From NCBI GenBank assembly GCA_037176725.1, contig JAZBRS010000049.1, positions 32,604,001 through 32,668,000 on the forward strand: 64,000 nucleotides of DNA. The letters run 5' to 3'. The position numbers and the translations under genes are program-made. How positions within the stretch are numbered: the stretch's first letter is position 1; every line of letters starts with the position of its first letter. This DNA comes from Posidonia oceanica (Eukaryota > Streptophyta > Magnoliopsida > Alismatales > Posidoniaceae). The notes beneath the pieces were generated by a model that saw nothing but the letters and a program-made list of their open reading frames with translations, was not told the DNA's origin and ran no database searches. Shown here in pieces: positions 1 through 52,900 of the stretch.

Positions 1-695
1 CTTGAAACCTGGAGGTAATCTAAATGGGGGGAACCAGCTCATGTCAAAGTTTGCCGGAGCCTGGGTATATACCCCTAATGCACTGAGCATTTTTCTCATC
101 TCATCCAAATTTGTTATCCCAACTGATGGGGTCGGGACATGTGAATTGAAGGACGGATGGTTCTGCTGTAGCTATTGCAGAAATGTTGAGGTGCAACCTG
201 CTCGTATCGCGGGGGAGATCCCTGGTGGTAATGATGATCTGGCCGAGGCTGATTGCCTGCCGGAGGTGGTCAGGGATGTCTCAAATAGACTCCTTCCTTG
301 TATTCGCCATGTGGCATGTAGTTGTGTTCCTGAATCAAGGGGTTGGCCCTTGAGTTATATGCTCCGTTGAGCGCTGTGCCCTGTCCTAGGTGGTTTGTGT
401 CCCGCAGTGAGTTCCCATTTAGTCCCTGGTATAGATCTTCAGGGGTATGGTCCGCATCTGGCCTTCGTTGTCCTTCACCGAGGTGGGGTGGCTGCTGGAG
501 GTTGTTTAGACATGGCCTCGTTTGGGCTGATGTCTCTTCATTTAAGAACTGGTACATGGCTCTGTACTGGATTGAATCCGAATCTAAGACTTCTCCGGTG
601 ATTGGGTGGTAGATTGTAGGCTCCTCTCTCGAGGTACTTGTAGAGTCTGACCTCTCTCTTTCTGGCTGATCAGCTTCATGGATTTGATTCATCAT
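1..695 (-). pseudogene. gag N-terminal fragment of element A2
   Basis: The open frame runs from the ATG at 695 to a stop at 270 (141 residues), starting MMNQIHEADQPERERSDS and containing TGEVLDSDSIQYRAMYQF. The same segment in element A1 starts at 8477, so the start is supported by two copies. It is polar and glutamine/proline-rich, as expected for the poorly conserved N-terminal part of a plant Tat-type gag; no Retrotrans_gag core is reached here. Downstream of 270 the homology to A1 continues in another frame (LPRDTSRLHLN, CPDPISWDNKFG), so the gene is frameshifted. Structural capsid protein of a retrotransposon by position; non-functional. Confidence 0.7.
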
Positions 696-730
696 TGCTA
701 CAACTTGTGAGATGGAATTGGCTTTAGGGC

Positions 731-787
731 GTAATACGCCTCAGTATACGGCATATAACATTGGACGCAAGATATCAAGCGTTCAAC
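731..787. repeat. stem-loop module, A2 leader
   Basis: Arms GTAATACGC at 731, GCATATAAC at 751, ATTGGACGC at 760 and GCGTTCAAC at 779. The second pair has the standard 19-nt offset; the first is 20. Lies just upstream of gag. Confidence 0.65.
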
Positions 788-799
788 GTCCCCAGTTGT

Positions 800-985
800 A
801 TTTCCTCCAACTCTTTTCCTGTCTTCTTTTTTCTTCTCAGCCTTTCACTCTCTTTTTTGTTTTGATTCTTTTGCTTTTCTTTTCTTTTTTTTTGATGATT
901 TTTCTTTTCCTCTTTTTTTTGCTCGTTTTCTGCTTTTTTTCTTCTTTTTTGCTTTTCTTCTTTTTCTTTTTCTTTTTTGAAGGAT
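800..985. repeat. pyrimidine-rich low-complexity tract upstream of gag (A2)
   Basis: About 185 bp almost entirely C and T on the plus strand (TTTTCTTTT and TTCTTTTTT type runs), purine-rich on the element's sense strand. The equivalent tract of element A1 lies at 8585-8745. The 92-residue F/L-rich frame over it is composition only. Confidence 0.85.
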
Positions 986-1160
986 TATAAGTGCGAAGAA
1001 AGGGAAATTACAAGAACTTTAATACAGATTCCTAGAAAAGAAGTAAAAATAAACAGAGTTGCCCCTAACTGATACTGTCACTGTTTTGGATTTTTCAATG
1101 TTTTACCTTGCAATTAATCCACACAGAAAAGCTAAAAATAAGCAGCCAAGAAAAAAATGT

Positions 1161-1216
1161 GTTAGACGCACTATTTCCTGCGTCTAACATTAGACGCAGA
1201 GATTTCAGCGTCTAAC
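1161..1216. repeat. stem-loop module, A2 leader (type example)
   Basis: A 56-bp double hairpin with arms GTTAGACGC at 1161, GCGTCTAAC at 1180, ATTAGACGC at 1189 and GCGTCTAAC at 1208. Offsets are 0, 19, 28, 47. All four arms use the same AGAC variant and pair perfectly over 8-9 bp, with 10-nt loops. Followed by ACACCC. Confidence 0.9.
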
Positions 1217-1920
1217 ACCCTCTTTCAGAAAACTTCACAGAAACACTTTCTGACAGCGATTTAAAATTTTGATTTATGTTTCGCTTTGAGATTAGTGTCT
1301 TAAACCTGTGTAGCTCTCAAGGTACCTTAAGGCTTAGGTATGGCTTTTTTTTTAAGAATTTCTATGGATCCTCACAAAATAGGTAAATATTTTTTTTGGT
1401 ACTATCCCCTACCTCAACTCCTAAGGATGTTAGGGGGTGCCCGAATACACTTAGGTCCCTACCCTGTAGAGGTAGAGCCCAGCGTACTCAGGATTAATCG
1501 GGTCTCTCACGTATCAACAACAATAAAATAAACAAACCACCGAAGGGGGGGAAGAATGCAAATCTAGACTTGGGTTTCTAACTTACTTCCACACGGAGCA
1601 AGGGAGAGAAGAGTGCCCCTTGTGAAAGCAAGTGACAACACAAACACCTCTCTTAAGTCCTTTACAACAGAGGTGCTCAGGATTCAAGTGGTTACTTTGT
1701 GTAATCCAAGAAAAGACACAATCAAATTAGTTCCCTAAATAGGGCCATGCAAGTCATTCAGAAAAATTTGATTTTTATTTGTTTTTTATAAAGCACCCAA
1801 AAGAAAATGAGATTCCGGTCCCTACGGCAAAGTCGATCACCTCACACCTCAGTCTTTAGGCTAGTTATAAAAAGAAAGCTAAGAAAAATTTTAAAACAGA
1901 AATGTTTCTGTTCAGTGGTC

Positions 1921-1976
1921 GTTAGACGCGGTGAATGGAGCGTCTAATGTTAGACGCGCCAGTTCACGCGTATAAC
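1921..1976. repeat. stem-loop module, A2 leader
   Basis: Arms GTTAGACGC at 1921, GCGTCTAAT at 1940, GTTAGACGC at 1949 and GCGTATAAC at 1968; offsets 0, 19, 28, 47. Confidence 0.9.
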
Positions 1977-2243
1977 ATACTGACAGAGTTTTTTGCAGAA
2001 AAATAGTGGCTTTTACAAACCACCTCCACTCCCGAGAATCCCAGAGAAAAGGAGAGGTGATTTCAGTTATTTAGACGTGAAAAAAAAACGAGAAGGGTCA
2101 CGGCGTCTCAAAACACTACGAGGAATTTCACCGCTACCTTAAAACTTATGAAAAAAAAAAACTAACAAAAAACTAGAAATGAAGATAACAAGGTAGAAGA
2201 AGAAGAAGAAATTACTCACCTTGCACGGGAGCACTTCTAGCCA

Positions 2244-2260
2244 TCCCACCGTGATCGCCA
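2244..2260 (-). other. primer binding site, tRNA-Arg type (A2)
   Basis: On the minus strand the site reads TGGCGATCACGGTGGGA, three bases after the LTR end. The terminal TGGCGA complements a tRNA 3' end ...UCGCCA. From memory the 17-mer fits the 3' end of a plant tRNA-Arg with a few mismatches; Tat-lineage elements commonly use tRNA-Arg. Identical to the site in A1. Confidence 0.65.
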
Positions 2261-2425
2261 GACTGTGGATATGGGGTTTTGGAGGAGAAGAAGAAGATGA
2301 AGGATGGGAGGTTTTGGGAAGAAGAAGGCTTCTTTTGGCTCCCTCTTTTGCTCGCTCTATCTTCTCTTTCTCGAGGTCCCCCTTCTTTGTATCCGACTCT
2401 GTCACTCCACGTGTGATGGAATCGG

Positions 2426-2438
2426 TGTGATCGCCACT
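2426..2438 (-). other. primer-site-like sequence inside the LTR
   Basis: TGTGATCGCCACT on the plus strand repeats the core of the true primer site (GTGATCGCCA) about 165 bp inside the LTR. The same arrangement occurs in the other LTR copies of the window. Confidence 0.55.
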
Positions 2439-3151
2439 CTCGGTTCGCTTTCGCCGGCCCTCGAGACGCCTTTGGGGAGATGTAGTGTGGTTGCGGGTTC
2501 AGCTACCTTGGGACAACGCCAGTATTGCCCAAGGGTGCCCGTGCTCGGTAAGCTCTTTCTTCCTTCTTCCTCCTTGTATGACAAACGTTAGCAAAGCAAA
2601 ACAAACAAGACAATATAAAAATGGATCAACATGTGTAGTAATCTATCTAGAGTTAGTAGAAAAGAAAGTAAAGAAAACATAGTGAGATACGTACCCGAGG
2701 GGTTTGATCCCCCCGATTGCAAATAAAAGAGATGTATGCCTAGCTAAGAATATATGAACTTGAAATAAAAATGCTTGATTATACTACGGAATTAAACATG
2801 TAATATCAGAAATAAAAAAAATGAGAAATGAACGAAATAGAGTCTCCTCTGTCTATGCACAAGGTGCAAACTGTGTTGGCATGAAGTCAACAACGACAAA
2901 AGGATTCTCAAGCTTTTTCTATGACTCTCCTTCTTTCCAAAAACTCTCTTCTCTTTTTCAATTCTTGAGGACCTCACTTCTCTAAGATTTTCAATCTCAA
3001 GAGCATCTGAGTTCCAAAAGTTTCTTAGCTTCTTTTCTCTCTCAAAATTCCGGCCTTGAACTCAGTGGAGATACCCTTGCCTTTATAGAAGCAAGGGAGG
3101 AACAAAAAAGAACACAAATACCAAGTCAGCAGAGTTTCCTGTTTTAGAAGT

Positions 3152-3207
3152 GTTATATGCTGGAAAACCAGCGTATAACGTTAAAAGCGAGAGAACTTGC
3201 GTATAAC
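3152..3207. repeat. stem-loop module in LTR
   Basis: Arms GTTATATGC at 3152, GCGTATAAC at 3171, GTTAAAAGC at 3180 and GCGTATAAC at 3199; exact offsets 0, 19, 28, 47. The arm word differs from the leader modules, but most pairing is kept. Confidence 0.85.
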
Positions 3208-3380
3208 GACCTCCGAGGCATAACTGTCAGGATCAGAGAAGATTCTCCAATTAAGGAGTCATTAAGTGTGATTAAACTCGGCTTTGATGGCTTTGACCAG
3301 TCAACAGGTTCCAAAGAAGGCAAAAACATGATTTTTGGATTAGGCCAAATAAGGAAAGCTTTGGCTGACTGGGTTGCCAC

Positions 3381-3464
3381 GTTGAACGCTAGAAACCCAG
3401 CGGCCAATGTTAGCCGCTGGAAAACCAGTGGCCAACGTTGTACGCCGAGAAGTCAGCGGACAAC
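3381..3464. repeat. triple stem-loop module in LTR
   Basis: Three consecutive 28-bp units at 3381, 3409 and 3437: arms GTTGAACGC/GCGGCCAAT, GTTAGCCGC/GTGGCCAAC and GTTGTACGC/GCGGACAAC. Each pair is offset by exactly 19 nt. The change to GGCC/GCC appears in neighbouring arms. Confidence 0.85.
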
Positions 3465-3673
3465 ACCTTTAATCAGTTTAACTTCCAAATTTGGTCAGGA
3501 CGTGAAGAACACTCAGGTTGCCAACATTTGGGACTTAGAAAGGTATAGCACTTTGGACTTAAGTGGAACATTTGGCTCAAGTGAGATTCAAAAATGGGTG
3601 GAGGGCCTCTAAGAGCGACCTAATGCAAGAGACTATCCTAATATGAAGGGAGTGCCAAAACGGGGTATCTACA

Positions 3674-4447
3674 ACAGAATCTAGGGGGATGCCCCTAGTG
3701 TTACCTCCATCAGTAGAGGTTGGTGCCTTTCTAGGCGGGCTCGTCATTGTTGACGTTCCCACCATCTTTGAAAAGCTCATGATCTGCTCCTAGTTCAGGA
3801 TCGATTTCAGACCCGTGGGGCTACAGATCTTCAGAGAGGTTCGCAGTGATGCGGCGAGCTTTATCTACCAGTCGTTGTGACTTGCGTCGATTTTTCTCCG
3901 TAAGTTGCTCCAAAGAAGAAAAGAGGTTCGGAGTTGGAGGAAGAGAGGGCTCGGAAGTGGCGGTGCCAAAAGGAGAGGGAAGAGAAGGAGGTGGCTTGTC
4001 AGGAGGTTCGGGAGCCAGTGTGCCTAATAGTGATGGCGACGATGATTCCTCAGTAGGCGGAGGAATTTCTGTTGCAATCTAACCTTTTGGAGGTTCTGCT
4101 GGCAACTCTAATGGCGATGGTGATTCCTCAGCAGGCGGAGGAGTCCCTGTTGCAGTCTGACCTTCTAGAGGCTCTACTAGCAACTCAAGTGTTTGGAATA
4201 AGCTGGAAATGTATTCGTCGGCTGTGTCCTCTTCACTTGGGAGGGTGGATTTGGTTGGCTTTGCCAATATGATATTTCCCAGCGGGGATGTATTCGGATT
4301 GAAAATCCCTACGCTAGTGAAATGCTTTTGTAAACTCCACTGTAACGGCTGCTCGTCAGGGAACTGGTCAAAACCAAGTCCTCCTTTCCCTTCTCTGTCT
4401 TAAGCCTAGACTGGCTCCTTCATTCCCTTTCCTTCTGGGCCTAAGCC
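3674..4447 (-). other. 3' internal region of element A1, no recognisable domain
   Basis: Next to the LTR the sense strand carries a CTAGGGGCATCCCCCTAG palindrome; its GGGGCATC resembles the GGAGGGGCATC that abuts element B's 3' LTR and may be a degraded polypurine tract. Repeated glycine/serine-type codons (around 4010-4160, two copies of a GATGGTGATTCCTCAG-like stretch) are visible. No polymerase or integrase motif seen. Confidence 0.5.
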
Positions 4448-4654
4448 CTAGCCTTCCTTATAGCCAAACTTTCTCATGATCTCCCAACCTACGCTCATGG
4501 AGGGTCTTCTGGACTTTGGAGATGCTTTCTTTTTGTGAACCAGCTTGGGCTTGGCCCATTTGTTCATTAGTTCAACCATAGATACAATGTTCTTTCCTTT
4601 CTCAGCTCTGGTTGGTTTTTCCCGCACACTGAACTGGTGCGGTAAATATTTCAC
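4448..4654 (-). pseudogene. ORF remnant after the second protease-like domain (A1)
   Basis: A 68-residue frame starting MKYLPHQFSVREKPTRAEKG, rich in lysine and arginine. It lies directly downstream of the protease-like domain at 4661-5065, separated by a stop (about 4659). It could be the spacer that normally leads into reverse transcriptase, but no polymerase motif follows. I do not recognise a domain. Confidence 0.35.
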
Positions 4655-4660
4655 ATTTGC

Positions 4661-5065
4661 CTAAGCTTCCTTGCCTGGTATGTCCCCCATTATTTTGATA
4701 ATCTTCCCGTTGTGAGGGAATTTCAGACATTGGTGCCGGGGGGATGATACTCCTTTCAGGTTGTCAAGCCATTGCCTCCCTAAGATGATTTGATATGGAA
4801 CATTCATGTCTATGACAATTAATTGGGTTAGAACCTGGGTTGGTCCTATCCCGATCTTGGTAGTCCATTTGCTGTGAGCTTTTCTCTTGCTATCATCATA
4901 TCCGGCAATTGTCATGTCTATGGGGGTCAGTGAGAGTTCATTCACACCCAGAGCCCTTATTGTATTCAAAAAACAAATATTCATTGATGCTCCAGTAACT
5001 ATAAGCATGCCAGACACTAAATGATTATTTATAGAAATTGTTACATTTAGTGGTGCTTTCCTCAT
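4661..5065 (-). pseudogene. second retropepsin-like domain, catalytic Asp lost (A1)
   Basis: A 134-residue frame with the fold signature of retroviral-type aspartyl proteases: a flap-side strand ending GMLIVTGASMNICFLNTI, a middle part GYDDSKRKAHSKWTTKIGIG, and the C-terminal hydrophobic motif YQIILGRQWL, as in Ty3/gypsy proteases. The active-site triplet, normally D-T-G, reads V-T-G (the Asp is replaced by Val), so it should not be catalytic. It lies about 0.9 kb downstream of another protease domain that keeps DTG, so the element carries two protease-like domains in series. Element B has only the first. Whether this is an old duplication or a join of two element types cannot be decided here. 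Confidence 0.7.
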
Positions 5066-5401
5066 TTCTAGTGGTGCCAGCTCGCTATCAGCAAATGTAA
5101 TTATAGGCTCTACAAAAGCTGTTGTAGCTATTACATGGAGATCTTCTACTGGTATGTCCCGTGCAACTTAAGCCTTCTCCAATACTTCTTGCAGAGCTTT
5201 TCGATGTAAGACTGAGCTGCTTATGAGATCAAAAATGGAGATCCTGGCTTGTGTTTTCTTTAGCTACTCCAAGATGTCATACTCTGTTGGCACAGGTCCT
5301 TCTTGTGGTCTAACCAGCTCTGTTTGCTCCACTGGTAGCATTATCCGATTTGATAACCTTCCTCCTCTAGTAATAGGTGCCGCTGCCTCATCCTCTCTGC
5401 T

Positions 5402-6457
5402 TTAGCTGCCTGATTCTTCTTTCTTTTTGTGTGGCAAGGCGAAGACATGCTTCTTTTGAATGAGCCCCCCAAGCTCTGGTGGTTTGATGGCTCTAGCTGG
5501 TTGTTCTGCTGGTACTCGGAAAATTGAGGATGGCGGAGCAGTAGCGTTCCGAAATACCGAGGTACTTTGTGAGCCTGGTGCTTTGAAGATTGGCAATTGG
5601 CCTGATGGTGGCCTAACTGCTCTGAAGATTGGGGAGACCGACGATGATTGTGGCTTGGGACCCCACAGCGATGACTTTCTCCATGGCAGGAATTGTGACT
5701 CTTCCTTATCCCGAAGGGTAGCTATTTGAGGTTCAGGCAACTTGAATTTGCATAATATCCCTAGGCGATTAGCAGGAATGCTAACAACCGCTCCCTCGTA
5801 GTTGAATTTCAGCAACTGGTGAACAGGGGATGCCACGGCTCCGACTTCTGCTAGCCAAGACCTCCTGAGGATGAGAGGTTCCAGGACTTCTTCCTTCATG
5901 ATGATTACTGTGGTGATGTTGGTCAAAGGACCCACTGTAATTTCCATTGGTATTGTCCCTAGAGCCAGTTTCTCACTTTAATCAAACCCAGTGCACATGA
6001 AAGGGGTCTTGTCTAGTCCATCGTCATTGATCCCTAGGCTTTGGAGCATGGATAAAGAACTAAGACTTCGACTTGCTCCAGTATCAACTAGCACTCATAG
6101 CACATGGTCATTGATGCCCACTGTAATGACGAGCGGCAATTCTTGCTTATGCAGTGGCGGAAGCTCGGATTCTTGGAAGACAATGTTTTCTTGTTCAAAT
6201 TGCTTGGTGCCTTTTTGAACTAAGGTGAGAGAGTTTTCTTCCTCCGTGCTATCTTGCGGCTCATCTACTGCCGTGAAGTTGAACTGGCTGAAAAGATCTT
6301 CAATTGTTAGCCCTTCGCCTACTTCGCTGTCCGAGTCATCATCTGAGATTATTTTCATATCATTGGCTTGGTTGCCCCAGTCCTCATCTGAGATTGCTTG
6401 GCTACCCCAGTCCTTTGTTATTAATGGGTTGGGGATCTCATCATCCTTGAATGCCAT
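5402..6457 (-). pseudogene. gag-pol segment with first retropepsin domain (A1)
   Basis: Two frames in the same phase (6457-6095 and 5947-5402) are split by in-frame stops at about 6095 and 5980. The first part is acidic (DSDSEVGEGLTIEDLFSQF). Between the frames lies VLVDTGASRSLSSLSMLQS with the catalytic DTG intact, followed by ITVGPLTNITTVIIMKEEV and LEPLILRRSWL, matching the protease of element B (20567-20178) segment by segment. Downstream is proline/serine-rich spacer (SSVSPIFRAVRPPSGQLP). The protease would mature the Gag polyprotein in the cytoplasmic particle; the stops make this copy dead. Confidence 0.75.
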
Positions 6458-6493
6458 TATTTGATGATTAGGGAGTGGGTCGTTGTAAATTTG

Positions 6494-6784
6494 CTAAGAT
6501 GCCCCTATTTGCTCCCTCTGTTTGGCTCTTTTTACCAGGACATCCCATTCAAACACATCCGCCTCTACCATGTCATAGACTGTATCTCTGAAGGTCCAGC
6601 AGTCATCTATGTTGTGACCATGTCTTCTGTGGAATGGACAATACTTGCTTTGGTCACAATTTGGAGTTTCTGGCTTAGTTGGCGGGAGTTCAATTGCTTT
6701 TGCGCCTTCTAGCTCGATGAACATATCCGCCAGTGTGACTGGTAGAGGAGCGTAATGGTCCCTTTTTCCCCCTCTGGGTGGCAA
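6494..6784 (-). pseudogene. gag C-terminal part with CHHC zinc knuckle (A1)
   Basis: A 96-residue frame with the plant Tat-type gag C-terminus: HYAPLPVTLADMFIELEGAK, then KYCPFHRRHGHNIDDCW. The metal-binding residues are Cys49, His52, His57 and Cys62, the spacing of a retroviral CCHC knuckle with the second Cys replaced by His. Followed by FRDTVYDMVEADVFEWD. A nucleic-acid-binding role is inferred from the family. It lies downstream of the repeat-coded proline/glutamine/tryptophan region and upstream of the protease. Confidence 0.8.
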
Positions 6785-6935
6785 TAGCTGTGGAGGGGGA
6801 ACATTATGATAATTTCCCCTATGCCCATTGTTGTTGCGAGGGTTACCATTGTTGGCTTGGTTGCTCTGATTGCCCCTATTCCATTGTGGTCGAGGGGTAT
6901 TCCACAGAGGACAAATCTGCTGCTGCTGAGGGGGA

Positions 6936-7164
6936 TTGCTCCATGCTTGCTACGGAGGAGGATGGCTCTATACTTGTTGTTGCTGAGGAGGGCGGCTCCA
7001 TGATTGCTACTGGGGAGGATGATTCCATGCTTGTTGCTGCTGAGGAGGGTGGCTCCATGATTGCTGTTGGGGAGGATGGTTCCATGCTTGTTGCTGCTGA
7101 GGAGGGCGGCTCCATGATTGCTACTGGGGAGGATGGCTCCATGCTGGCTGTTGAGGAGTTACTA
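6936..7164 (-). repeat. 57-bp tandem repeat coding a QSWSHPPQ-type peptide repeat
   Basis: About four copies with copy starts 57 bp apart (GGCTCCATGA at 6994, 7051 and 7108). In the gag frame each 19-codon unit reads approximately QSWSHPPQQQQAWNHPPQQ, interrupted in places by TAG in place of CAG. It links the gag core to the zinc knuckle. Frames in the other phases over this stretch are shadows. Confidence 0.85.
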
Positions 7165-8092
7165 TGGCTCTTTGCTCTAGTGGTTTTGGCGCGGTATTGA
7201 TCCTGTTGATAGCTCCAGTCACGCCTTCCACTACTTGTGCCTTTCTACTCTTCTTGGGCTCCTCCATGAATTCATGTAGATTCTCTTTGACAAAGGCAGC
7301 CACTTCGTACAGAGCTGTTACATTGGGACAGTATGCATTTACAAGTCCTTTCTTCATTGGTCCAGTAGTATTTGCAATGAGGGTCTGGACCACTTGTCTT
7401 TCTAGAATGGTCAAGCCTGATCTGGCTGCCATTTCACGCCATCTATTGGTGAATGTTACCCAGCTTTCACCTTGCTTCATGACTTCTTTGCTTAGATCAT
7501 GGAAGGTCGGCTTTGGATCTATCTTGTGCTGGTACTTGGTTAGGAAGCTTTCTCTAATCTTGTCAAAGCTGCTGAGATCTTCCTTGGAGAGGGTGAGGAA
7601 CCAGTCCATGGGTTCACCTTCCAGTGAGTAGAAGAAAAGGTGTATGAGGAGCCCCAAATCATAGAAATAAGGAGCCGACTCCATCTGGAACCGCACAAGA
7701 TGGCTGAGCGGGTTTGTGTTTCCATCGAACTTGGGAGTCTTTTGGTACTTAAAGCCCGGGGGAAGTCTGAAAGGGGGAAACCGGCTCATGTCAAAGTTTG
7801 CCGAAGCTTGGGTGTGTACCCCTAATGCGCTGGGCATTTTTCTCATCTCATCTAAATTTGTCATCCGGGTTGATGGGGTCAGGATGTGTGAATGGAATGC
7901 TTGATGATTAAGCTGTTGATGAGGATAGCCGTTGCAGAAGTATTGAGGTGCAACCAACTTGTGTTGCGGGGAAGGTGCCTGGTGGGGGTGATATTCCAGC
8001 AGGGGCTGGTTGCCAACTGTCGATGCTTGGAGAAGTGGTTCCTGGTGCTCGTAGGGTGGACCGACTCTTTCTCTGTACTCACCATGTGGCAT
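7121..8092 (-). pseudogene. gag core (Retrotrans_gag domain), element A1
   Basis: A 323-residue frame. After a Q/H/P-rich segment comes FPPFRLPPGFKYQKTPKFDG and then the Retrotrans_gag core: PLSHLVRFQMESAP, LEGEPMDWFLTLSKEDLSSF, LTKYQHKIDPKPTFHDLSK, WVTFTNRWREMAARSGL. This is the capsid-like domain of plant Ty3/gypsy elements. The frame ends at a stop in the repeat region, where Gln codons have become stops. The true gag start is 8477; stops between 8343 and 8092 break the gene, so this Met is not the native start. Confidence 0.8.
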
Positions 8093-8342
8093 TTGATGTT
8101 GTTCCTAGATCAAGGGGTTTGCCCTTGTCTTGTAAACTCCATTGAGCATTGTACCTTGCCCTTGGTGATTTGTGTCCGGCGGTGGGTTGCCATACTATCC
8201 CTGGTATAGTTCATCAGGTGTGTGGTCTGCAGTGGGCCTTCATTGCCTTTCACTAAGGGGGTGGCTCTTGGAGATTGTTGTTTTGGCACGGCCCTGTTGG
8301 TGTTGGTGCCTCATCATTTAAAAACTGGTACATGACTTTGTA

Positions 8343-8477
8343 CTAGATCAAGTCTGGATCCAGGACTTCTCCGGTGGTAGGATGGTAGATAGTGATGGTA
8401 GGCTCTACTCCCGATACACTGGTCGAGTCTGACCTTTCTCTTTTTGAGTGTTCAGTTTCAGAGATTTGATTCATCAT
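8343..8477 (-). pseudogene. gag start segment, element A1
   Basis: Starting at the ATG at 8477 the frame reads MMNQISETEHSKRERSDS and ends at a stop after TGEVLDPDLI. The parallel segment of A2 (from 695) continues through the same point, so the stop is a mutation. This start is preferred over the upstream ATG at 8573 because only the MMNQ start is shared by both copies and the upstream codons overlap a stem-loop module. Confidence 0.7.
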
Positions 8478-8525
8478 TGTGACAGCTTTGTGAAATGATA
8501 TCTGACTCAGGGGTGTAAAACACTT

Positions 8526-8571
8526 GTAATACAGGCGTTTCACATTGAACGCAGGATTTCTACCGTTGAAC
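8526..8571. repeat. stem-loop module upstream of gag, first loop shortened
   Basis: Arms GTAATACAG at 8526, GCGTTTCAC at 8535, ATTGAACGC at 8544 and CCGTTGAAC at 8563. The second pair keeps the 19-nt offset; the first has lost its 10-nt loop. Position matches the module at 731 in A2. Confidence 0.65.
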
Positions 8572-8584
8572 ACCCTCAGTAGTA

Positions 8585-8745
8585 TTTTCAGCTTCCTCTG
8601 TTTCTTTCCCTTTTCCTTTTTCTTCTCTCTTTTTTGTTGCTTGTTTTTTTTCTGTCTTTTTTTTTGCTCTCCTCTTTTTTTCTCTTGCTCTCTTTATTTT
8701 GCTCTCTTTTTTTGCTTTTATTTTTTTCACTTTTTTTTTATAAAA
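8585..8745. repeat. pyrimidine-rich tract upstream of gag (A1)
   Basis: Almost pure C/T on the plus strand, equivalent to 800-985 in A2. Confidence 0.85.
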
Positions 8746-8912
8746 GGAGGATTGCAAGTAATTACAGAAATTTTGCAATCTAATACAAGCTCCTAAGAAT
8801 GAAAAATGGAATTTAAAACTGCAAATGTCCTGTTTATAATCCCTGCTTAATCATTCACCCTGCAATCATTCCACAGATAAAAGCCAGAAATTAACAGACA
8901 ACCAGACAATGC

Positions 8913-8968
8913 GTTAAACGCGGGATCTCCTGCGTCTCATGTTAAACGCAGAGATTGAAGCGTTTAAC
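8913..8968. repeat. stem-loop module, A1 leader
   Basis: Arms GTTAAACGC at 8913, GCGTCTCAT at 8932 (decayed), GTTAAACGC at 8941 and GCGTTTAAC at 8960; offsets 0, 19, 28, 47. Same position as 1161 in A2, but with AAAC/TTT in place of AGAC/TCT. Confidence 0.9.
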
Positions 8969-9522
8969 ACCCTGTTTCAGAAAACTACACAGAAATACTT
9001 TCAAACAGCGATTAAAATTTTGATTTTTGAATTTTCACTTTGTTATTAGTGTTTTAAACCTGCATAGCTCTCAGGGTGCCTTAAAGCTTGGGTATGGCTT
9101 TTTTAGAGATTTCTATGGATCCTCACAAAATGGGTAAATGATATTCTCTTGGTACTGCCTCTATCTCAACTCCTGAGAATCTTTGGGGAGCCTGAACACA
9201 CTTAGGTTCCTACCCCATAGAGGTAGAGCCGAACGTACTCAGGATTGATTGGGTCTCTCGTGTATCAAGCACAAGCAATCACAACAAACCACCAAAGGAG
9301 GAGGGAGAATGCAAATCAACACTTGAGATTCTAATTTACTTTCACAAGAGCCAAGGGAGGAAAAAGGGGCCCTTGTGAAAGAAAATGACAACACAAACAC
9401 CTCTTTTAGGCACTTTGCAACAGATGTACTTGGGACCTAAATGGTTATTTGCGTAACTCAAGAGAAGATACAAACAAATCAGTTCCCAAATAGGGTCATG
9501 CAAGACATAGAGAAAAACTCGA

Positions 9523-9543
9523 TTTTTTTTTTTTTTTTTTTTT
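9523..9543. repeat. poly-T run
   Basis: About 20 consecutive T in the A1 leader; at the matching place in A2 (about 1771-1790) there is a shorter T-rich stretch. Confidence 0.85.
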
Positions 9544-9657
9544 GAAAAGCACCTGAGAATCAAAGTTCCGATCCCTACGGCAAAGCCGATCACCTCAATT
9601 ATCAGGCCAGTTATAAGCAAAGAAAACAAGAATTTTGCAGAGTTCCTGTTCAGTGTC

Positions 9658-9713
9658 GTTAAATGATGACACTGGGATGTTTAATGTTAAATGCTCAGAA
9701 CCAGGTGTTTAAC
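9658..9713. repeat. stem-loop module, A1 leader
   Basis: Arms GTTAAATGA at 9658, ATGTTTAAT at 9677, GTTAAATGC at 9686 and GTGTTTAAC at 9705; offsets 0, 19, 28, 47. Counterpart of 1921 in A2. Confidence 0.8.
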
Positions 9714-9927
9714 GCACTGACAGTGAATTTTTTAGAAAAAAAGAAAGATTTTTTTTATGAACCACCTCCACTCCCGAGAATCACAGAGAAAAGAGAGATG
9801 GTTTCAGGTATTATGAACAAAAAAAACAAAGCAAGGTTGCGGTGCCTCAAAACGCTATGAGGAATTTCGCCGCTACCTTGAAAAACTTACAAAAAATAAC
9901 AACTAAAATAAAAATAAAAATAGCAAG

Positions 9928-9960
9928 GAAGAAGAAGAAGAAGAAGAAGAAGAAGAAGAG
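9928..9960. repeat. GAA microsatellite next to the primer site
   Basis: About eleven GAA units; the A2 copy has a shorter one at about 2193-2212. A matching TTC run lies inside the LTR at 10258-10283. Confidence 0.9.
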
Positions 9961-9998
9961 ATCAAAATCTCACCTTTGCACGAGGGCACTTTTAGCCG

Positions 9999-10015
9999 TC
10001 CCACCGTGATCGCCA
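9999..10015 (-). other. primer binding site, tRNA-Arg type (A1)
   Basis: Minus strand TGGCGATCACGGTGGGA, three bases from the LTR end at 10019. It marks the 5' LTR and so the minus orientation of the element. Confidence 0.7.
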
Positions 10016-10134
10016 GACTGTGGATATGGGGTTTTTCGGAGGAGAAGATGGTTTCTCTCTGTGGTTTGTTTCACCTTCTCGGAGTCCCCTTTTGCTTTTC
10101 GTCGATTCCGACACTCCACATGTGTCGAAATCGG

Positions 10135-10147
10135 TGTTATCGCCACT
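10135..10147 (-). other. primer-site-like sequence inside LTR A1
   Basis: TGTTATCGCCACT on the plus strand, about 120 bp inside the LTR; one base differs from the copy at 2426. Confidence 0.5.
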
Positions 10148-10752
10148 CTCGGTTTGTTTGCGTTGGCCCTCGAGACGCGTTTGGGAGATGTAGGGTGTGG
10201 GTTCAGCTACCCTGGGACAACGCCAGCGTTGCCCAAGGGTGCCCATACTTTGGTGAGTTTCTTCTTCTTCTTCTTCTTCTTCCTTGCAACAAAAATGATA
10301 TGAAAGATACAACTTAATTCAGTGTAGTAAGTAATCCTAGATACATAGAAAATGACATAAACAAAATAAAGGAAAAAACACTTACCCAAGGGGTTTTATC
10401 CCCTCAATTGTAACTACCTATGAATGCCTAGCCACACAGTATGATAAAAGAAATGCAATATGCAAATGTGTAAAGCAAAATTATAACGCTAAAGTAAAAC
10501 CCCCTTTGGGTGTAATGGAATGCTTGGAATGTGAAAAATTGATGTGACGTAGTCGACGACAAAAATCTCAAGCTTTTTGGCTCTTTCTCTCTCTTTCTCT
10601 ATCTTAGGATCTTTCACAAGATTTCTCAAGGTCTTGGCTGATCAGTTCTGGGCCTCCCCCAAGGTTGAGGGTACCCCTGCTTTTATAGAAGCAGGGGAAG
10701 AACAATAATGTGTCAAAGGGAGCCAACTCAGCAAAGTTTCCAAAACAGAAGT

Positions 10753-10808
10753 GTTAAACGCTGATTTCTCAGCTTTTAATGTTAAACGCTAGGAACCCAG
10801 CATTTAAC
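10753..10808. repeat. stem-loop module in LTR A1
   Basis: Arms GTTAAACGC at 10753, GCTTTTAAT at 10772, GTTAAACGC at 10781 and GCATTTAAC at 10800; offsets 0, 19, 28, 47. Loop TAGGAACCCA. Confidence 0.85.
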
Positions 10809-10990
10809 AGCCTCCTGAGCTCTAGCTGTTGTGGATAAAGAATATTCTCCCATATTTGTTGATTGACCAAGATTAAGCCACTTTAAATTGGCATTAAAGG
10901 ACTTTGACTGGTCAAGGATTCCAAATATGGTAAAAGAATCGACATCAAATTTGGGCCAGATAAGGAAAGTTGATCCAGCAAATTGCCGCC

Positions 10991-11047
10991 GTAAAACACA
11001 TGGAATCAGGCATTCTACGTTGAATGGCTAGAACCCAGCGTTCAACG
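10991..11047. repeat. stem-loop module in LTR A1
   Basis: Arms GTAAAACAC at 10991, GCATTCTAC at 11010, GTTGAATGG at 11019 and GCGTTCAAC at 11039. Offsets 0, 19, 28, 48. Confidence 0.7.
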
Positions 11048-11219
11048 ACCCTCCGAGGTAGCTGTGGATTCGAAGGAATAATCAGCAATTAATTGTAGGT
11101 TAATGCCCATTAAATTAAGATTCGTTAATCACTTGATCAATGGACCTCCAAAAGGAGCAACAAACAGGATTTCTGCTTTGGCTAAATAAGGAAAGTCATG
11201 ATCAACACTGGGTATCAAC

Positions 11220-11275
11220 GTTAAATGCTAGTAACCCAGCGTTTTATGTTAAAAGCTGGGATGCCAACGTTTAAC
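11220..11275. repeat. stem-loop module in LTR A1
   Basis: Arms GTTAAATGC at 11220, GCGTTTTAT at 11239, GTTAAAAGC at 11248 and ACGTTTAAC at 11267; offsets 0, 19, 28, 47. The loop TAGTAACCCA is close to that of the module at 10753. Confidence 0.85.
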
Positions 11276-11443
11276 ACCTCCAGGCAGTCCACCTTCCAAA
11301 TTTGGCTAAGAAATTAAAGATGCTCAGGTTGCTGACATTTAAAGCACAATAAAGGACTCTTTAAGGGCACAAAGACAATGTTGTGGTCTGGGGATTAAAT
11401 TGGATTTATGAACTGAGCTGATCTGGCCATAGTTTTGTAAGGT

Positions 11444-11500
11444 TGTTAAACGGCTAATACCCAGCATTTAACGTAGAACGTTGTGAAATACCCTTTCAAC
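11444..11500. repeat. stem-loop module in LTR A1
   Basis: Arms GTTAAACGG at 11444, GCATTTAAC at 11464, GTAGAACGT at 11473 and CCTTTCAAC at 11492. Second pair offset 19; first 20. Confidence 0.7.
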
Positions 11501-11631
11501 ACCCACAATAAGCATTTGGCTTGAATGAGAGAGGTTAGATCGAGAAAAGGACCTCTAGAGGTGAACTGGGCATGATATGGTGCAAAGGGAATTCATTACA
11601 ATGAGAGAAGTGCCAAAATGGGGTGTCTACA

Positions 11632-12493
11632 GTAATAAGCTTGAAAGATCCTTTTGTATATATTTCTTTCATAGGTACTTTACGCATTTCCAATTTAAAA
11701 GGCTTTGGTCTACATTTTCGAAATTAAGATGTTGACTGTTTTTAATAGTTAGTGTTCTATTATAAGTAGGGTTTCAAGACCCATTGGAGTCGTTAGCGAT
11801 GAGATTTAATATCATTGACATAGTGGAAGATAACCCTAAATACTAGTGGCCCATCAACAGAAACAAAGCTCAAAAACCCCTAAATCATGCCTAGCAGGAA
11901 ACAAGGAGCAACCTACAACGAGAGGCCTCGAACCTAATATCCCATGTTATATAACACTATTCAAAGAAATTAAATTCGGCAACTAACGATCACTAATGAC
12001 TTTGATACCAACTCTAGCAGGAATACAAAAACTATTATAACATTGCTACTTATACATGAATAATAACACTGATAGAATTTAGGAGTGAAACTCATAGATT
12101 TTCAAATATATTACATAAGAAAGCTTTACAAATATTACTGCTTCAGATCTTTCAAGGCACAAATTCCTTGCTTGCAATTCTCCACTCACACTTGCAACTC
12201 TCAGCTCACACACACAATTCTCAACTCTCGACTCACACTTACAATTATCAGCTTCAGGCAACCGATGCCCTCCCTTTATCATGCTAGCCTTTTATAGAGA
12301 ATGGAGATGATTCATCCTTCATTAGTGGACAAATATGGCACGATGAGAGAAAAGTTGATCTTTTCGAAGGTTTAATCCCCTTCTTCCTTGTTTTTCACTC
12401 CCTTACATTCTCACTTCCCTCCCCTTCTTCCGAGTTTACCTCTTCCAATAAATACCAATACTAATCTTACTACATCCATAAAAGGGAGGATCA
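11632..12493 (-). mobile_element. Ty1/copia-type LTR and leader fragment
   Basis: At 12010-12000 the minus strand reads TGGTATCAAAG, one mismatch from TGGTATCAGAG, the classic complement of initiator tRNA-Met used by plant Ty1/copia elements. The sequence before it (12493 down to about 12011) is then the 3' part of a 5' LTR and 11999-11632 its leader. No coding domain remains. Element B sits at 12494, apparently inside this LTR; its upstream half may continue past 26894. No LTR start was defined. Confidence 0.5.
12439..12465. repeat. 27-bp segment nearly identical to the GTF3C3 start-codon region
   Basis: This plus-strand segment beginning CCTCTTCCAATAA matches 37631-37657 at 26 of 27 positions. 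The second copy ends with the AT of the GTF3C3 start codon. No similarity is seen on either side. Confidence 0.8.
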
Positions 12494-13225
12494 TGTGGAT
12501 GTGGATTTTGGGGGTGTAGATGGATGAATGAAGTAGTCGGTGCTTCCACGACGTCGTCTACTTGGTGTGATCGCCACTCGTCGATTTGCAATGCTGGCTG
12601 ACAAGACGCCTGGGGGAGATGTGGATGATGTGGGTCGTCAGCTCACTGGATCAACGGCAGGATGTCGTCCAGCAGCGTCCTCGTGCTATGTGAGTGTGTT
12701 CCTTTCCTTCAAAATAAATAATAGAGATCTAGGTAAGTCTGGGTGTAGTAAACATATCAGATAAACAAGAAAATAACATAATAAACGAATCTAATACTAA
12801 CCGGGGGTGGTTCCCCGCATGCATGTGCTATGGGTCCTAATTAAGGAATGCAATAATGAAAATGAAAAAGTAGATTTGAAGAAATACTCCCTTCACCCTC
12901 GTGCTCTTATGGCATGGAGTGAGGAAGTGGAGGTACGGACGGAGCTCCGGCTAAGCTGATCTCTAGCATCTAAAGTTGATAATCTAAGGTTGATCTAAAG
13001 TAGATGATCTCTGGGATCTAGGGTTTCTCGAAGGATTTGGGCAGAGTGGGGACTAGGGATCTCTCAGAATCTCTCTAACTCTTAGAAATATCTCCTAACT
13101 CGGGCTCCTAACTCTCAAAAATGCCTCCCCTTAAGCTCTAGCTCTCGGAGCCCTTCTATAGAGGTGTGGGGCTCAAATGGATCAGATCTAGGAATTTTCT
13201 AGAGATAAATTAGATATTTTAGCAA

Positions 13226-13246
13226 GTCGCCTATTGGATCGGCGAC
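13226..13246. repeat. B-type dyad GTCGCC / GGCGAC
   Basis: GTCGCC at 13226 and GGCGAC at 13241, offset 15, loop 9. In the other LTR (about 25765) one arm reads GTTGCC. Confidence 0.75.
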
Positions 13247-13898
13247 AAGCACAAATATCTCATATTAATAACGTGGAAATGGCGTGCAAGTCCGCAGATC
13301 GGAAGATAGAATGTGCCACTGTAGACACCCCATTTTGACACCTAGCGGCGGATCAAACTTGGAGGAACGAACGCAGAAGCGGCGGATTCAACCTTTCCAC
13401 CCAAACTGACCCAAAACCAAATCCTATTCCAAACCCTACCCAAAACCACCCATTCCCATTTCACAACTCAACTCAAGCCTTAAACCAACCCAAGCCCAAT
13501 AGCAGTCCAATCCATTGAGTTGCACGCTCAGGCGCCGCATGCAGAGGCGACTAGACCTCGTCGCCAAGATTAGTGGCAACTGGGTTTGGCGTCATGGGTA
13601 GCGGCAACTCGACTGTAACTCAGGCCACCGCCCAAGCCCTTCCCGCGCCATTGCCGATCGTCGTCTCCTGCCACCCGTTCCCTCGGCCACTTACTCCTCG
13701 CTACCGCCACCCACTACACGCCAATCGCCAGTAACTCCCTGGCACCACGTCACCTCCTCGCCAATGTCCTTCCCGCACTCACCGCCCTCACTGCCACGGC
13801 CGCCTGCAACCTTGCCACCGACGACCTTCGCCATCCTCTCCTGCAAGTCCACTTACTTCCTCGATCTCACAGCCCCCTCACAACTAGAGACTACCCCT

Positions 13899-13955
13899 CC
13901 TCTACCACGATTGGCTGCTGCCAGAGCCAATAGAGGCAGCCAATCGTGGTAGAGG
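13899..13955. repeat. 20-bp perfect inverted repeat
   Basis: The arm CCTCTACCACGATTGGCTGC at 13899-13918 is repeated as its exact reverse complement at 13936-13955, with a 17-nt loop. Next bases do not pair. Confidence 0.95.
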
Positions 13956-22753: not shown

Positions 22754-22861
22754 TGGGGTGCTGAAGAGGTACTCATGCTAACCACCGGTACTGCTTGCTT
22801 GAGCCATGGATGTTGAAGCAGCTGCCATGCTTGGAGTGACCTGGGCCAAGCTTGATGCAAT

Positions 22862-46900: not shown

Positions 46901-49900
46901 AATTTAGAACAGTATACTTAATATGTGGCAGAGTGGCTCCTCTCAATGTGTATTAGTAAGATATTCTACTTTTAACGTGCACTTGCGAGACACAAAAATA
47001 AAACACATATGAGTGACCACTAAAAAGGTCACCCAGCACACACCTACCTACATAATATCAAAACACCAACTCGGTAGAAATCATTTCTACAAGGCAACAT
47101 CGGAAAAAAGCCATGCTCAAAACCACGCCAAAACCTCATAAGCAGGTCACAAAAACACGACAAGACAATTCTACTATTGTCCAACAAGCACAAATTCTTT
47201 AAAATATGCCTTTCAAAATCATTTTTCTCATTTTCAAACTAAAATCATATACATATTTGAAATCTCTTATGCATACTTGAAATGGCTATTCTACACCAAG
47301 TCAAGTCCATAACCAGTACAAATCCACAAATCACACACATGTTGAAAACTAAAAGCAGTACGGAATACTCAGCTATCTTAGTACTCAAAACCACGTAGTC
47401 TGAACTCATGCGCTCTCCACAATCAACGGTGTTTGAATACTTTATATCGCAAACAACACATCCACAACATAAGCACTGACCACAAGTAGCCGTCGAAACG
47501 CCACTGCACTACCACAGACAAGTCGACCAACAAGGAACATATTTATCCCGAAGTCCAACCTCTCATAAGGACTCTCAACAATGTGTCGTGTTGCCTGCGT
47601 CAAGCAACCAACATTGGCCATAAGCAATCACCAAAATGCACTGCACTGCCATGGATAAACTACCTTATGAGGAGCCTCTCCATCTCTAAGTCCAATCTCT
47701 CTAAATGACCCTCAAAATGCTAACTCTTTTCAAAAAAGCTGTCTTCTCTCAGGACGTCACCAGAAACAGGACACGTGCAACTACCCGCACTGACTAAACA
47801 CTACAGGGTCCGTCCTCTTGGCGTCTTAGTCTCAGTACCCGAAGTAACCAGAGTCTCTCACCTTCGGGTCCAACCAGCACCTAAAGTCTCAGTGGTCGGA
47901 GCAACCAGAGTATCATACCTCTAGGTCCGTCCAGACGATACATCAACCTGCGAACTTCAGTCTAGTAAATCGTACTCGACCACCTAAGAGTCTCGTACTC
48001 CCTAGTCCGGCAACACAACCCTCCGGCCTGTCGACTCTGGACATCACACTCAACTACATAGAGGTATCATACTCTTAGGTCTACTGTCATGATTTCTCGA
48101 CATTTTGGTTCCTGGACCTCAGTCTCGGACTTGTGCTCAACATTTCCAAAGGTATCATATCTTCTTGATCTCCACAAACAGAAAACGTATGGAAAACATT
48201 TTTCAAAACCTTTGCAAAACTTATACATTTTATTTCCAAATCCTTTTGGAAAACCAATTTTGAATCAAACCACTTCGCAAAAACCCATACGAAATAACAA
48301 ATTTGGTTAAAACACATAATACCTAAATTGTCGATCTCAAACCATCAAAAACAACACCACGTTAGTGAAAGTCAAGAAACTCAGAGAAAACACAAATCCA
48401 GCCACAAACATAATGCTAATACACGTATACCAACAAAACAGTCAAAAAATGAACTTAAAGTGTAAGACGTAATACAAGTTGCGTTCAATGTTAAACGCTT
48501 GATTTCCCAACGTTTAACACACCAGACAGTGCTCCTTAACTACTCAGAGCACTGCACACCAACAATCCTCCAATCACATGCATTGAAGGCACAACTCAGA
48601 ATATACGGGCTAAAAGATAAACATGACTAACACCACACCAAATCCATACACAATAAATCTCTAATAGATTAAGATTAATTCCCTAATTCATGTGTCATAC
48701 TAACATTTGCTTCCATTTTAAACTCTTATGTTCATCCCACAATCAAAGCCTTATGTAGTAGTTTTACTCACCTACGTCATCTAAATCAGGCATTTAGTTT
48801 TTCCCTAATATCCATAGAAACTTAAGACTAAGTTTTTTAGAATTACAGAAATTGCTGAATTACAACCTAGAACGTTAGACTCTAGGATACTTACTTCCTA
48901 CATAGGACGCATAAGTTCCTACGTCTGACACATGAACTACAGGTTTTCTTAGAAAGGCCTCTTCTTGAAAACTAGCACACCTCTTGATCATTTCTCTAAG
49001 AAATCAAAATATAACAGGAGGAGCATTTAAACTACTACATGCAACCCAGGTACAAATCAAAATCACTTCTATTAAGCATGCATTGCCTAACTGGAGTGTA
49101 ATACGTTATAAACTGTGCGTCTTATATTCGACGCAGTCCGATTTGCGTCTTACACCTAGGTTCAGACCCTTGACCAAACTTCCAGAAAACTATCATGCAC
49201 CTACATTAAATGATCAAGGAGTCGAAATAGGAAATGAACCACATATATTCTACTACATGCAATACAATCTTAGTTTCATTATCCAATTTAAATTACTACA
49301 AATTGATTATGGCAATAGGGAGCTGTTTAGAGTGTAAGACGCATAGATCTGGGCGTTTAACATAAGACGCACTAGGTTGGATGTCTTACACCCATAGGTT
49401 CAGACAACAAGAAATTCCTACTGTAAACCTACACAACTCCCCTCCACAAGCTCGCAAGTACAGAACATGTTCGAAGAGGAACCCGAAACTACGGCATGTA
49501 ACAAAGTCTTAACCACAAAACAAACCAAATACATCTAAACGAATATGTACCTTGTATCTAAGAGGAAAGCCCAACACATGCAGCAAGCTCCCAACTCGAT
49601 CCAGAGCTCTATGAAACCTTATGAATACTCTTCTAGCACTCTCAGATCATCCACGATCCCTAACCCTTCATGCACACTAGAGGTCCATAAATAAGTGCAT
49701 GTATGCATGAGAGAAGGGAAAGGAAAGAGGAAGAAGAGAGCTCAACACCAAAGAACCCCACCAAGGCTTACCACCAGAGCTCCGATCCTTAACAACTCTT
49801 CCCCAGGCCTCCTCAGAGCTCCCACGAACCCCAACAACACATGCATCATCAAAGATCCAAAGAGTGGGTGCATGCATGGAAGAAGGGAAAAGGAAGGGAG

Positions 49901-52900
49901 AAGAAAAGGAGAGAATGCAAAACCAAAGATTCCAAACCACAGTTGCAGCACCTCCTCAAGCCAAACGCAACGCTTGGAACATGCAAAGGGTCGCCAGAGC
50001 TCCATCTCCACGCTTACAACACATCCATGGAGGAGGAACCCAACATGCACACCCAAGCAACCGAAGCACACCTTCTTCTCCAACATGCCAGCTGCCTCTC
50101 ACCCTCAGCATTGGTTTTCTCCTCTAGAATCGGCTCTCACAACGTAGACGAGGAGAAGAGAAGAAAACTCAGAGAAGTGGCGTTGGTATCACAATATATA
50201 GGCAGACAAATCTTCCTAGAGACGACTCGAGGCGTTGGACGTTGCTACGTCTTATATAAGACGCACAAATTGTTGTGTCTTACACTTAGAAGCCAGAAAA
50301 CACAAATTCAGGTGTAGAACGTTGCTTGATATGAGTTTACATTAAACGCTATATATTTAGCATCCAACACATTCAACTTCCAGATTAAATATTTCGTTTA
50401 AAATGCCACCTAAAAATATGGGTCGTTACATTACTACATTTTCTGGGGAAAGGGTTGGGATTGGTGGGGTTGTTTTAAATTTGATGGCACTTCAATTGCA
50501 GTTGTATACTTAGTGAGTCAGCATGTTTGTTGTTGCAAGGTGACAATTGGGGACACCTCTTTCTTTCAGTGCACTACTCATATTTTTTTGTGGTAAGTTG
50601 AGGATAAGTGATGCTAGACAATCTTGAGGGCTCCTCTTTGGTAGAGCTTCACTTGAAATGGAGGTTGCAAGGCCTCAAGGATGATGCTCCCACATACTAT
50701 TTCGTGGATCGTGTGACTTTAGAGGAATAAGAGAATATTTTGCAATGAGCCATCTATATTTGCAAGCCTTTACAAGCAGTGGTGTGGCTTGTTGCTCCTT
50801 TCATTGAGGTTGGTTGGAAGGAATATTGGGAGGTCCCAGTCTTTGTGAAATAGGTATAGATCAAACATAATGGATGGGTGGCCTACAGTGCCAGGCACAT
50901 TCACATTTTTACTTTGTTTTGCATTATGCTGCCTTTTCTTTTATAGTGTTCATTGCTTATTTTATAGTACATGGTGTTGGGCAGTTATAAAAAAGTCCTG
51001 TTCAAAAAGTAAATATAGCCAAAATCACGATGTGAAGACAGATGAGTGGGAATATTCTAAGGGATTGAATTCATTTGTAATAGGGTGGGTAGCACCAATT
51101 GAGGATAAAATGATCGCACCAAATGTTCGATAAATTCTGCCAATAACCATATAATCCTTTATCGGTCCCCTCACCCAAACCAGAAACAAATTCCAATATT
51201 CAGAACCTTGAGGTATAGTTGTTTTTGCTGTTGTCATTGCTAGTTTTGTATTGTCCACATCTCATCCATCCTATCTCCTTGATGAGGAACTTCCATGTTA
51301 TGATTCTTGCTTTTGAGATTTGTTGAAATATGGACATCCAACTCAAAAGTCAAAATTAATTGGCTATGAGTGAAGAGGTCCATCTATATATAACTACAAG
51401 TCCAATTCTCTCTTTTTTCAATGTAGGGCTATTCTAACACTTTCCCTCACTTGTGGCCTTTTTTAGGTCCTATAAGTGTCTCTTTTGAATATAGGTGGTT
51501 GCGTGTGGACTTAGGTCTATTTGGGTCTCTTTTGGTTCTTATACCATGTTAAAATATGAACATTCAACTCAAAATCAAGTGATTATGAGTGGAAGGGCCT
51601 ATCTATATATAATCACAAGTTCAATTGTTACTTTTTTCAAGATGAGATTATTCTAACAAGATTTTCTCTCTTTCTGTAGGTTTATTAAAATTTGTTCAGA
51701 AATAGTTAAATGTTCTAAAAGTTAATAACAATCTAAGTGGCATGCAAGTGTGGATCAGAATTCGCCATATCACCAATATGTCAGCTACATGTGTCGAATC
51801 TTTAGCTGTCGACTTGATATTCACTCAAAAGTTAGGTTTCGCACTATATTGTGTGAAGTCTTTCCAACATAGCCGATGTCCTCTTCTTTTCATTTTGTAA
51901 CTATGGTAGGTTTGACCAAGCAAACCAGCTTAGAATCTAAGTCTATTCAATCTAAATGGGGACAGACCTGCCCATATGTTTTTTTTTGGGTGTATTACAA
52001 TGTTTTTACGATGCTTTGGCCATGTTTTACATATGTGCAACATGCTTCATCTTTTGGAAGGGTTGAAGTCCAAAGTGAAATTGACATTCTAAACTATTCA
52101 TGCAGATGGAGGGGGTAACACAGCTCTTAGGATTTTGTAAACAATTTCTGGTTCATTTTATAATTCAGACAAATATTTGTGCAACGTAAAGTTAATAATG
52201 TATATTTAGATGGTAGAGGCTTGTCTAGTCAGTGTTCTTGGGATAAAGTATCACAAAATGGCTATTATATTGATAATGTTTAATGATGTTGTTATCTTAT
52301 TTCCATTTCAGGCAATTTTACATCCTTTTCGTTTTTATGCCATTCTAATGGGGCTCCATTTAAATTATCAAAATTTTGGTTCTCTGATAAATTAGTTTCT
52401 CTAGCTTCTTAAATAGATATTTCGTATGTAGCATTTCATATGTGTGTCTTGTCTCCTAGGCATAATATGTTTTTATAATAAAAAAATCCTAATGTATGTT
52501 TATGAACTAGGAGTGGACGCATGATCTTAAAGACAGCGAGCTAAATTGTTACTTATTTTATCTGTTTTATGTACTTAAGCATTTCATCCTCAAGGAATGG
52601 GGCATCCTTATAGGCAACAAAATAGCTGATAGCCGCCGACTGGCCACCTGATTTGATTTCTTTTGCTGTTTTGAATGATATACATGTTTCTATGTTTATC
52701 ATTTTCTTTGCAAGGTGGCTGTCTAATATTTTGCTTTATCATCAGCCAAAAAAAAGGGGAAGGAGAAAGGGGTCCAAAAATAAGCTTAGCCCTGAAATTA
52801 CTAGGAAACTTGGTGATGCTACTCTTCTTTATGCATCTGGAAATTACAATGAGGTTCCACATTTTTCTTCCAGCCATGTTTCTTCTTTGCCTGTTTAAAT

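Follow-up and report, generated by a model that had tools for sequence, protein, structure and literature searches.

A four-arm array of 9-bp half-sites in gypsy-type retrotransposons of Posidonia oceanica, a putative operator-like element for a DNA-binding protein

Results

The window analysed here is a stretch of 64,000 nucleotides from Posidonia oceanica (GenBank assembly GCA_037176725.1, contig JAZBRS010000049.1, forward-strand positions 32,604,001 to 32,668,000; G000:C48:32604001-32668000 in our searches of the 2,962,952,704-bp genome). It holds parts of two copies of a long terminal repeat (LTR) retrotransposon, family A, on the minus strand; positions 1-2291 and 7748-10048 belong to these copies and are 75% identical. 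The LTR and leader of this family carry the array of half-sites that is the subject of this report. The copies in the window possess gag and protease pieces, and the rest of copy 1 is found in the DNA immediately upstream (L042, L021), where reverse transcriptase, RNase H, RVT_3, and integrase follow in order. On the minus strand of L042, RVT_1 lies in an open reading frame (ORF) at 7888-9000, RT_RNaseH at 7345-7887, RVT_3 at 6706-7194, and Integrase_H2C2 with rve at 5497-6705. A second RNase H (RVT_3) between the first one and the integrase marks the Tat lineage, and we take family A to be a Tat-type Ty3/gypsy element.

The module consists of four 9-bp half-sites, W-N10-W′-W-N10-W′, where W is GTTRDMCGC. 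The initial annotation of this DNA had described twelve such places as 28-bp stem-loop units obeying one rule of fixed offsets. A half-site scan recovered recognizable arms at offsets 0/19/28/47 in ten of the twelve (Table 1), as well as the third unit that had been assigned to the module at 3381, beginning at 3437; in the module at 9658 the second arm (ATGTTTAAT) is heavily decayed. The remaining two, placed at 731 and 8526, are also modules but deviate from the rule: the first spacer is 11 nucleotides long in both, and the latter begins at 8515. The module placed at 11444 starts one nucleotide later. Modules are present in U3 and in the leader of both window copies, as had been proposed, with three in each leader. 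Comparison with 200 shuffles rules out chance: in window positions 601-11650, ten units pair at eight or more of the nine arm positions (shuffle mean 1.75, maximum 7), and the two-unit score reaches 17, while no shuffle exceeded 14.

Table 1. Half-site modules and associated features of the two family A copies in the window
Feature	Copy	Position	Strand	Arm offsets	Basis or remark
Leader module nearest gag	1	731..787		0/20/29/48	Half-site scan; W 731, W′ 751, W 760, W′ 779
Leader module	1	1161..1216		0/19/28/47	Half-site scan; aligned in 12 copies
Leader module	1	1921..1976		0/19/28/47	Extra 28-bp unit here in relatives L029 and L039
TATA box CTATAAA	1	3082..3088	-		63 bp downstream of module 3152, sense direction
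Promoter-proximal U3 module	1	3152..3207		0/19/28/47	Half-site scan
Three-unit U3 module	1	3381..3464		0/19/28/47	Half-site scan
Putative LTR 5′ end (TGTAGATACCCC on minus strand)	1	3673	-		Read from sequence; unproven by matched pair
gag-asp_proteas (PF13975) fragment	2	4661..5167	-		Under Pfam cut-off
gag ORF	2	7121..8104	-		PF03732 and PF19259, both under cut-off
Leader module nearest gag	2	8515..8571		0/20/29/48	Half-site scan
Leader module	2	8913..8968		0/19/28/47	Half-site scan; leader alignment
Leader module, decayed second arm	2	9658..9713		0/19/28/47	Half-site scan; leader alignment
TATA box	2	10682..10688	-		64 bp downstream of module 10753, sense direction
Promoter-proximal U3 module	2	10753..10808		0/19/28/47	Half-site scan
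U3 module	2	10991..11046		0/19/28/47	Half-site scan
U3 module	2	11220..11275		0/19/28/47	Half-site scan
U3 module	2	11445..11500		0/19/28/47	Half-site scan
Putative LTR 5′ end (TGTAGACACCCC on minus strand)	2	11631	-		Read from sequence; unproven by matched pair

The same geometry recurs throughout the genome, with a spacer of 10 or 11 and thus under a broader rule than that first stated. The genome counts, which for these repeats are lower bounds, are 65,123 for GTTNNNCGC-N10-GCGNNNAAC (reversed control, 5) and 123,619 for GTTNNNCGC-N11-GCGNNNAAC (control, 117), whereas spacers of 9 and 12 yielded 307 (control, 71) and 110 (control, 21). The spacer-11 total takes in another repeat (GTTAGTCGCC...), which accounts for 5 of the 63 distinct places among the matches listed. 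The pattern GTTGGACGC-N{0,30}-GCGTCCAAC occurs 97,313 times (control, 0), and all 54 distinct places among the matches listed have a spacer of 10 (18 places) or 11 (36 places); GTTAAACGC-N10-GCG was found 4,795 times, against 9 for its reverse. Because the counts are high at 10 and 11 and tiny at 9 and 12, the spacer is one helical turn in length; its sequence is unrelated between units and fast-changing. One turn of B-DNA is approximately 10.5 bp, and with a spacer of either 10 or 11 the two arms therefore lie on the same side of the helix.

The arrangement of the arms was examined in 26 stretches (L015-L020, L022-L041); as these were picked for holding GTTAAACGC-N10-GCG, the density of modules in them is uninformative on the genome. 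Together with the window (270,425 bp) they contain 161 modules scoring at least 17 of the 24 fixed letters in two copies of GTTnnnCGC N10 GCGnnnAAC; the reversed template gave none. A histogram of distances between half-sites with at least 8 of 9 letters (283,425 bp) peaks at 19 (200 cases) and 20 (31) from W to W′, at 9 (104) from W′ to W, and at 28 (104 and 91) for direct pairs, with minor peaks such as one of 13 cases at 37 from W′ to W. The alternating orientation of the half-sites and the absence of a gap between W′ and the next W rest on this local histogram. In 116 modules (464 arms, W orientation), GTT stands before the centre and CGC after it; position 4 is A or G in 449 arms, position 6 is A or C in 453, and C occupies position 5 in just two. 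The four arms are similar in preference.

Exact CTATAAA is found within 130 bp of 16 of 136 modules; 14 of these are U3 modules, at a distance of 63 bp in 13 and 64 bp in one, and two are leader modules at 73 bp. When a TATA-like box is defined as at least 13 of the 14 letters of CTTCTATAAAAGCA, 18 of the 161 modules have one within 130 bp (63 bp in 15, 64 bp in two, and 62 bp in one). In the 3′ region of L042, modules at 2166-2296 and 4023-4149 flank an antisense region resembling the plant mobile domain (PMD) at 2766-3833. No module was found in approximately 13.2 kb of gag-pol (L042 4300-9000, L021 1-4200, and window 4200-8480).

The spacer-11 form is carried by a second gypsy lineage. In L043, seven modules of four arms each, an overlapping pair among them, follow closely downstream of a gypsy pol; most have spacer 11. 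In this pol, RVT_1 and RT_RNaseH are followed by Integrase_H2C2 and rve, with no RVT_3 match. On its reverse transcriptase residues, we name this element as putatively Athila-type.

An alignment of the leader in 12 copies, built independently of the module score, reveals pairwise identities of 0.867 and 0.840 at the fixed arm positions, 0.711 and 0.794 at the arm centres, 0.664 and 0.590 in the spacers, and 0.785 and 0.771 in the flanks. The arms are, hence, conserved over the spacers. L029 and L039 have each gained a whole 28-bp unit, and one is missing from L015. The initial annotation had offered hairpin-templated homogenisation as one explanation of drifting arm words; such gain and loss is what we observe, and nothing ties it to hairpin templating.

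It had also been noted that the partner arm often changes with its arm, from which selection for pairing was suggested. These changes do not behave as compensation. Among the 169 deviations at fixed arm positions in 116 modules, 15 compensations were counted where 13.6 are expected. Genome-wide, the outermost pair of 85,724 units is unchanged in 65,123, altered on one side in 9,814 and 9,156, and altered on both in 1,631; the partner has changed in 14.3% of units if the first base has changed and in 12.3% if it has not (odds ratio 1.18), which makes this pair nearly independent. When 79 modules are grouped by position into 15 clusters, the fixed positions give within-cluster z values of -1.0 and -1.1. 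No compensation is thus seen at the fixed positions, and selection for RNA pairing was rejected on the compensation counts.

The arm centres were compared in the same manner. In the 100 listed spacer-10 units, matching is seen in 67 versus 49.3 expected at position 4, 51 versus 41.7 at position 5, and 67 versus 65.3 at position 6; when the sample is reduced to 30 units whose spacers are dissimilar, an excess persists at position 4 alone (24 versus 15.4), and the 44 listed spacer-11 units possess no excess at the centre positions. Element-wide concerted change of the centres is weak, 41 of 1000 permutations reaching the observed value.

Plant mobile domain and plant transposon families are represented in the fetched loci. 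In seven of these (L022, L030, L035, L036, L037, L038, and L042), module groups stand on both sides of a PMD-like region; in L019, L027, and L039 such a region adjoins one module group, and the other side is cut off or no module was found there. L040 holds another PMD ORF, with one module group approximately 1.1 kb away and the next at 2.3 kb. All of these loci had been selected because they hold the motif or lie next to the window. Six stretches of 3.6 kb around matches to PF10536 (plant mobile domain; L044-L049), chosen by domain score and blind to the motif, contained no module; the Pfam scores of these matches are high, and they may represent a different type of PMD. The PMD domain alone is consequently not predictive of modules, and a PMD protein as the general cognate factor was rejected on the same six loci. 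The PMD-like region, for which just six short homologues were found, is a candidate element-encoded factor only. The literature describes PMD-A clades as exclusively gypsy-encoded (PMC5418596), and a DNA motif has been linked to the PMD proteins MAIN and MAIL1 (PMC7156037). Elsewhere, at approximately 0.36-1.86 Mb of G000 C62, there are many PF10536 matches with long open frames, several of them spaced at about 25 kb.

Several other repeats were encountered. Positions 12496-26908 of the window are occupied by a gypsy-like element that carries pieces of gag and protease, along with long direct repeats whose pieces are 91-97% alike; it has no module and two single units only, and serves as an internal negative. 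A long degenerate TTTGAA-like array at 22855-23583 adjoins the gag-side ORFs of this second element. A separate group of half-site arrays at 48462..50368, apparently in another element and outside the finding for 731-11500, shows the variant GTAAGACGC / GCGTCTTAC in several arms. The other inverted repeat, GTTAGTCGCC...GGCGCCTAAC with spacer 11, is recurrent and matches the loose pattern (G000 C1:213590, 477349, 931503, 1065824, and 2809917). Six loci on viral contigs also hold the unit; by a rough estimate their number is about that expected by chance, and they were not used.

Discussion

The module is probably a double-stranded DNA, operator-like array for a multimeric DNA-binding protein, the binder itself being putative. 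Among the roles initially put forward, palindromic factor binding fits best because the one-turn spacing is rigid, the half-site is degenerate and present on both strands, the array sits upstream of TATA, and the examined gag-pol is devoid of modules; selection for pairing is unsupported. The four half-sites in alternating orientation (W-10/11-W′-0-W-10/11-W′) hold W and W′ one helical turn apart, and each W′ abuts the next W to form an 18-bp dyad. A sequence-specific, multimeric protein probably reads this array; acting from U3, close to the TATA box on its upstream side, as well as from the leader and 3′ non-coding regions, it would activate or protect transcription of the retrotransposon. 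Since two gypsy lineages share the site, a host factor is likelier than a protein of the element.

A number of observations weigh against this interpretation. Within clusters, the centre positions correlate inside a module (z of 3.9 and 3.9 for the hairpin pairs, 4.5 for the outer, 2.8 for the adjacent, and 2.1 and 2.7 for the direct pairs); as the correlation is seen in every arm pair, we attribute it to descent or homogenisation of the module as a whole. Pairing of the first spacer base exceeds chance in the raw samples (52 of 100 versus 33.9, and 30 of 44 versus 22.5) and, within clusters, in one of the two hairpins (z 2.5; the other, 0.8). Neither the centre correlation nor the raw-sample pairing of this base would be expected of a simple additive binding site. 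Mixture of families may be the source of the raw-sample excess at the centres and at this base, and a weak preference for symmetric sites could also be present. The two arm types also differ somewhat, with A at position 3 in 39 of 232 W′ arms versus 16 of 232 W arms. The TATA distances come from related elements and are, for that reason, not independent evidence, and any test of compensation is weakened because much of the divergence in dead copies is neutral. Finally, when ten window modules were folded as RNA, eight beat dinucleotide shuffles, with a topology that varied between modules.

The folds, the partial complementarity of the arms, and the first spacer base are what would be expected if the modules formed stem-loops in the genomic RNA, with pairing selected for dimerisation, packaging, or strand transfer. 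We regard this as very unlikely: the compensation, genome-wide, and within-cluster results given above do not support selection on pairing, the topology of the fold differs between modules, and an RNA loop has no reason to choose 10 or 11 nucleotides and hardly ever 9 or 12. An unlikely, though somewhat better, account is a selfish minisatellite, in which slippage or template switching during reverse transcription spreads and homogenises functionless units. The gain and loss of whole units and the centre variants common to all arm pairs of a module agree with this, but it does not explain why the fixed arm positions are conserved above the flanks and the spacers below them, why spacer length is fixed despite unrelated spacer sequences, why the half-site is common to two element lineages, or why the gag-pol stretches lack modules. 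The third alternative is a target of host silencing, in which the inverted repeats seed hairpin-derived small interfering RNAs or bind a host silencing factor. Palindromic motifs in Sirevirus LTRs are described as hotspots of small RNA mapping (PMC5311732), and host PMD proteins are reported to act in transposable element silencing (PMC5418596); this explanation leaves the conserved half-site and the one-turn geometry in the element unaccounted for, and we consider it the least probable of the three.

Extending the binding-protein interpretation, it is conceivable, if rather doubtful, that the two deeply separated gypsy lineages have come to share one operator, with well over 100,000 exact units, and one factor, and thereby a sequence-specific network of activation or anti-silencing. 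The factor would be a host regulator captured by the elements or a protein that they encode themselves, for example the product of the antisense PMD-like region. In such a network the spacer-10 and spacer-11 forms would represent two specificity classes.

In place and symmetry, the nearest known system is that of the Sirevirus RM boxes, and in behaviour the VANC target arrays (VANDALs are DNA transposons); the module is a member of neither, since at least one defining feature of each is missing here. Like the module, RM boxes are short palindromic sequences present many times per element in the LTR upstream of TATA, and a regulatory role has been proposed for them (PMC2829016). They adjoin an extra 3′ gene (ENV), where the modules adjoin the PMD-like region. 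Sireviruses, however, are Ty1/copia elements, whereas the gag, protease, and pol found here are of the gypsy type, with integrase after the RNase H domains; and the RM core, as described, is CGG-CCG in all but one of 13, within a palindrome of 10-20 bp, in place of GTT...CGC / GCG...AAC. The module is built of GTTRDMCGC half-sites arranged as dyads, with a fixed 10/11-bp spacer and a 28/29-bp period. The VANC targets share with it a degenerate 9-bp motif in dense, non-coding arrays of a plant transposon family, which gain and lose repeats and whose units diverge together; copies of their motif, YAGTATTAY, are same-oriented, with no dyad geometry mentioned in the available text (PMC5735166), whereas the half-sites here alternate. 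The DOWN promoter motif resembles the module in that it is a DNA motif tied to PMD proteins, as modules here adjoin a PMD-like region, but by its description it resides in gene promoters, and recognition by MAIN/MAIL1 is a suggestion only (PMC7156037). Literature searches over titles and abstract openings, mainly of open-access papers, returned no description of this array; searches with the arm words gave no title bearing on LTRs among the matches listed.

The genome-scale counts correct a tempting reading of these repeats as RNA structure. If proteins do dock at the module, at least two retrotransposon lineages have one regulatory site in common, on a scale that can shape how a 3 Gb plant genome is transcribed and how its chromatin is organised. 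The question of which protein these LTR elements recruit, and whether one factor can wake or silence many families, is thereby made testable.

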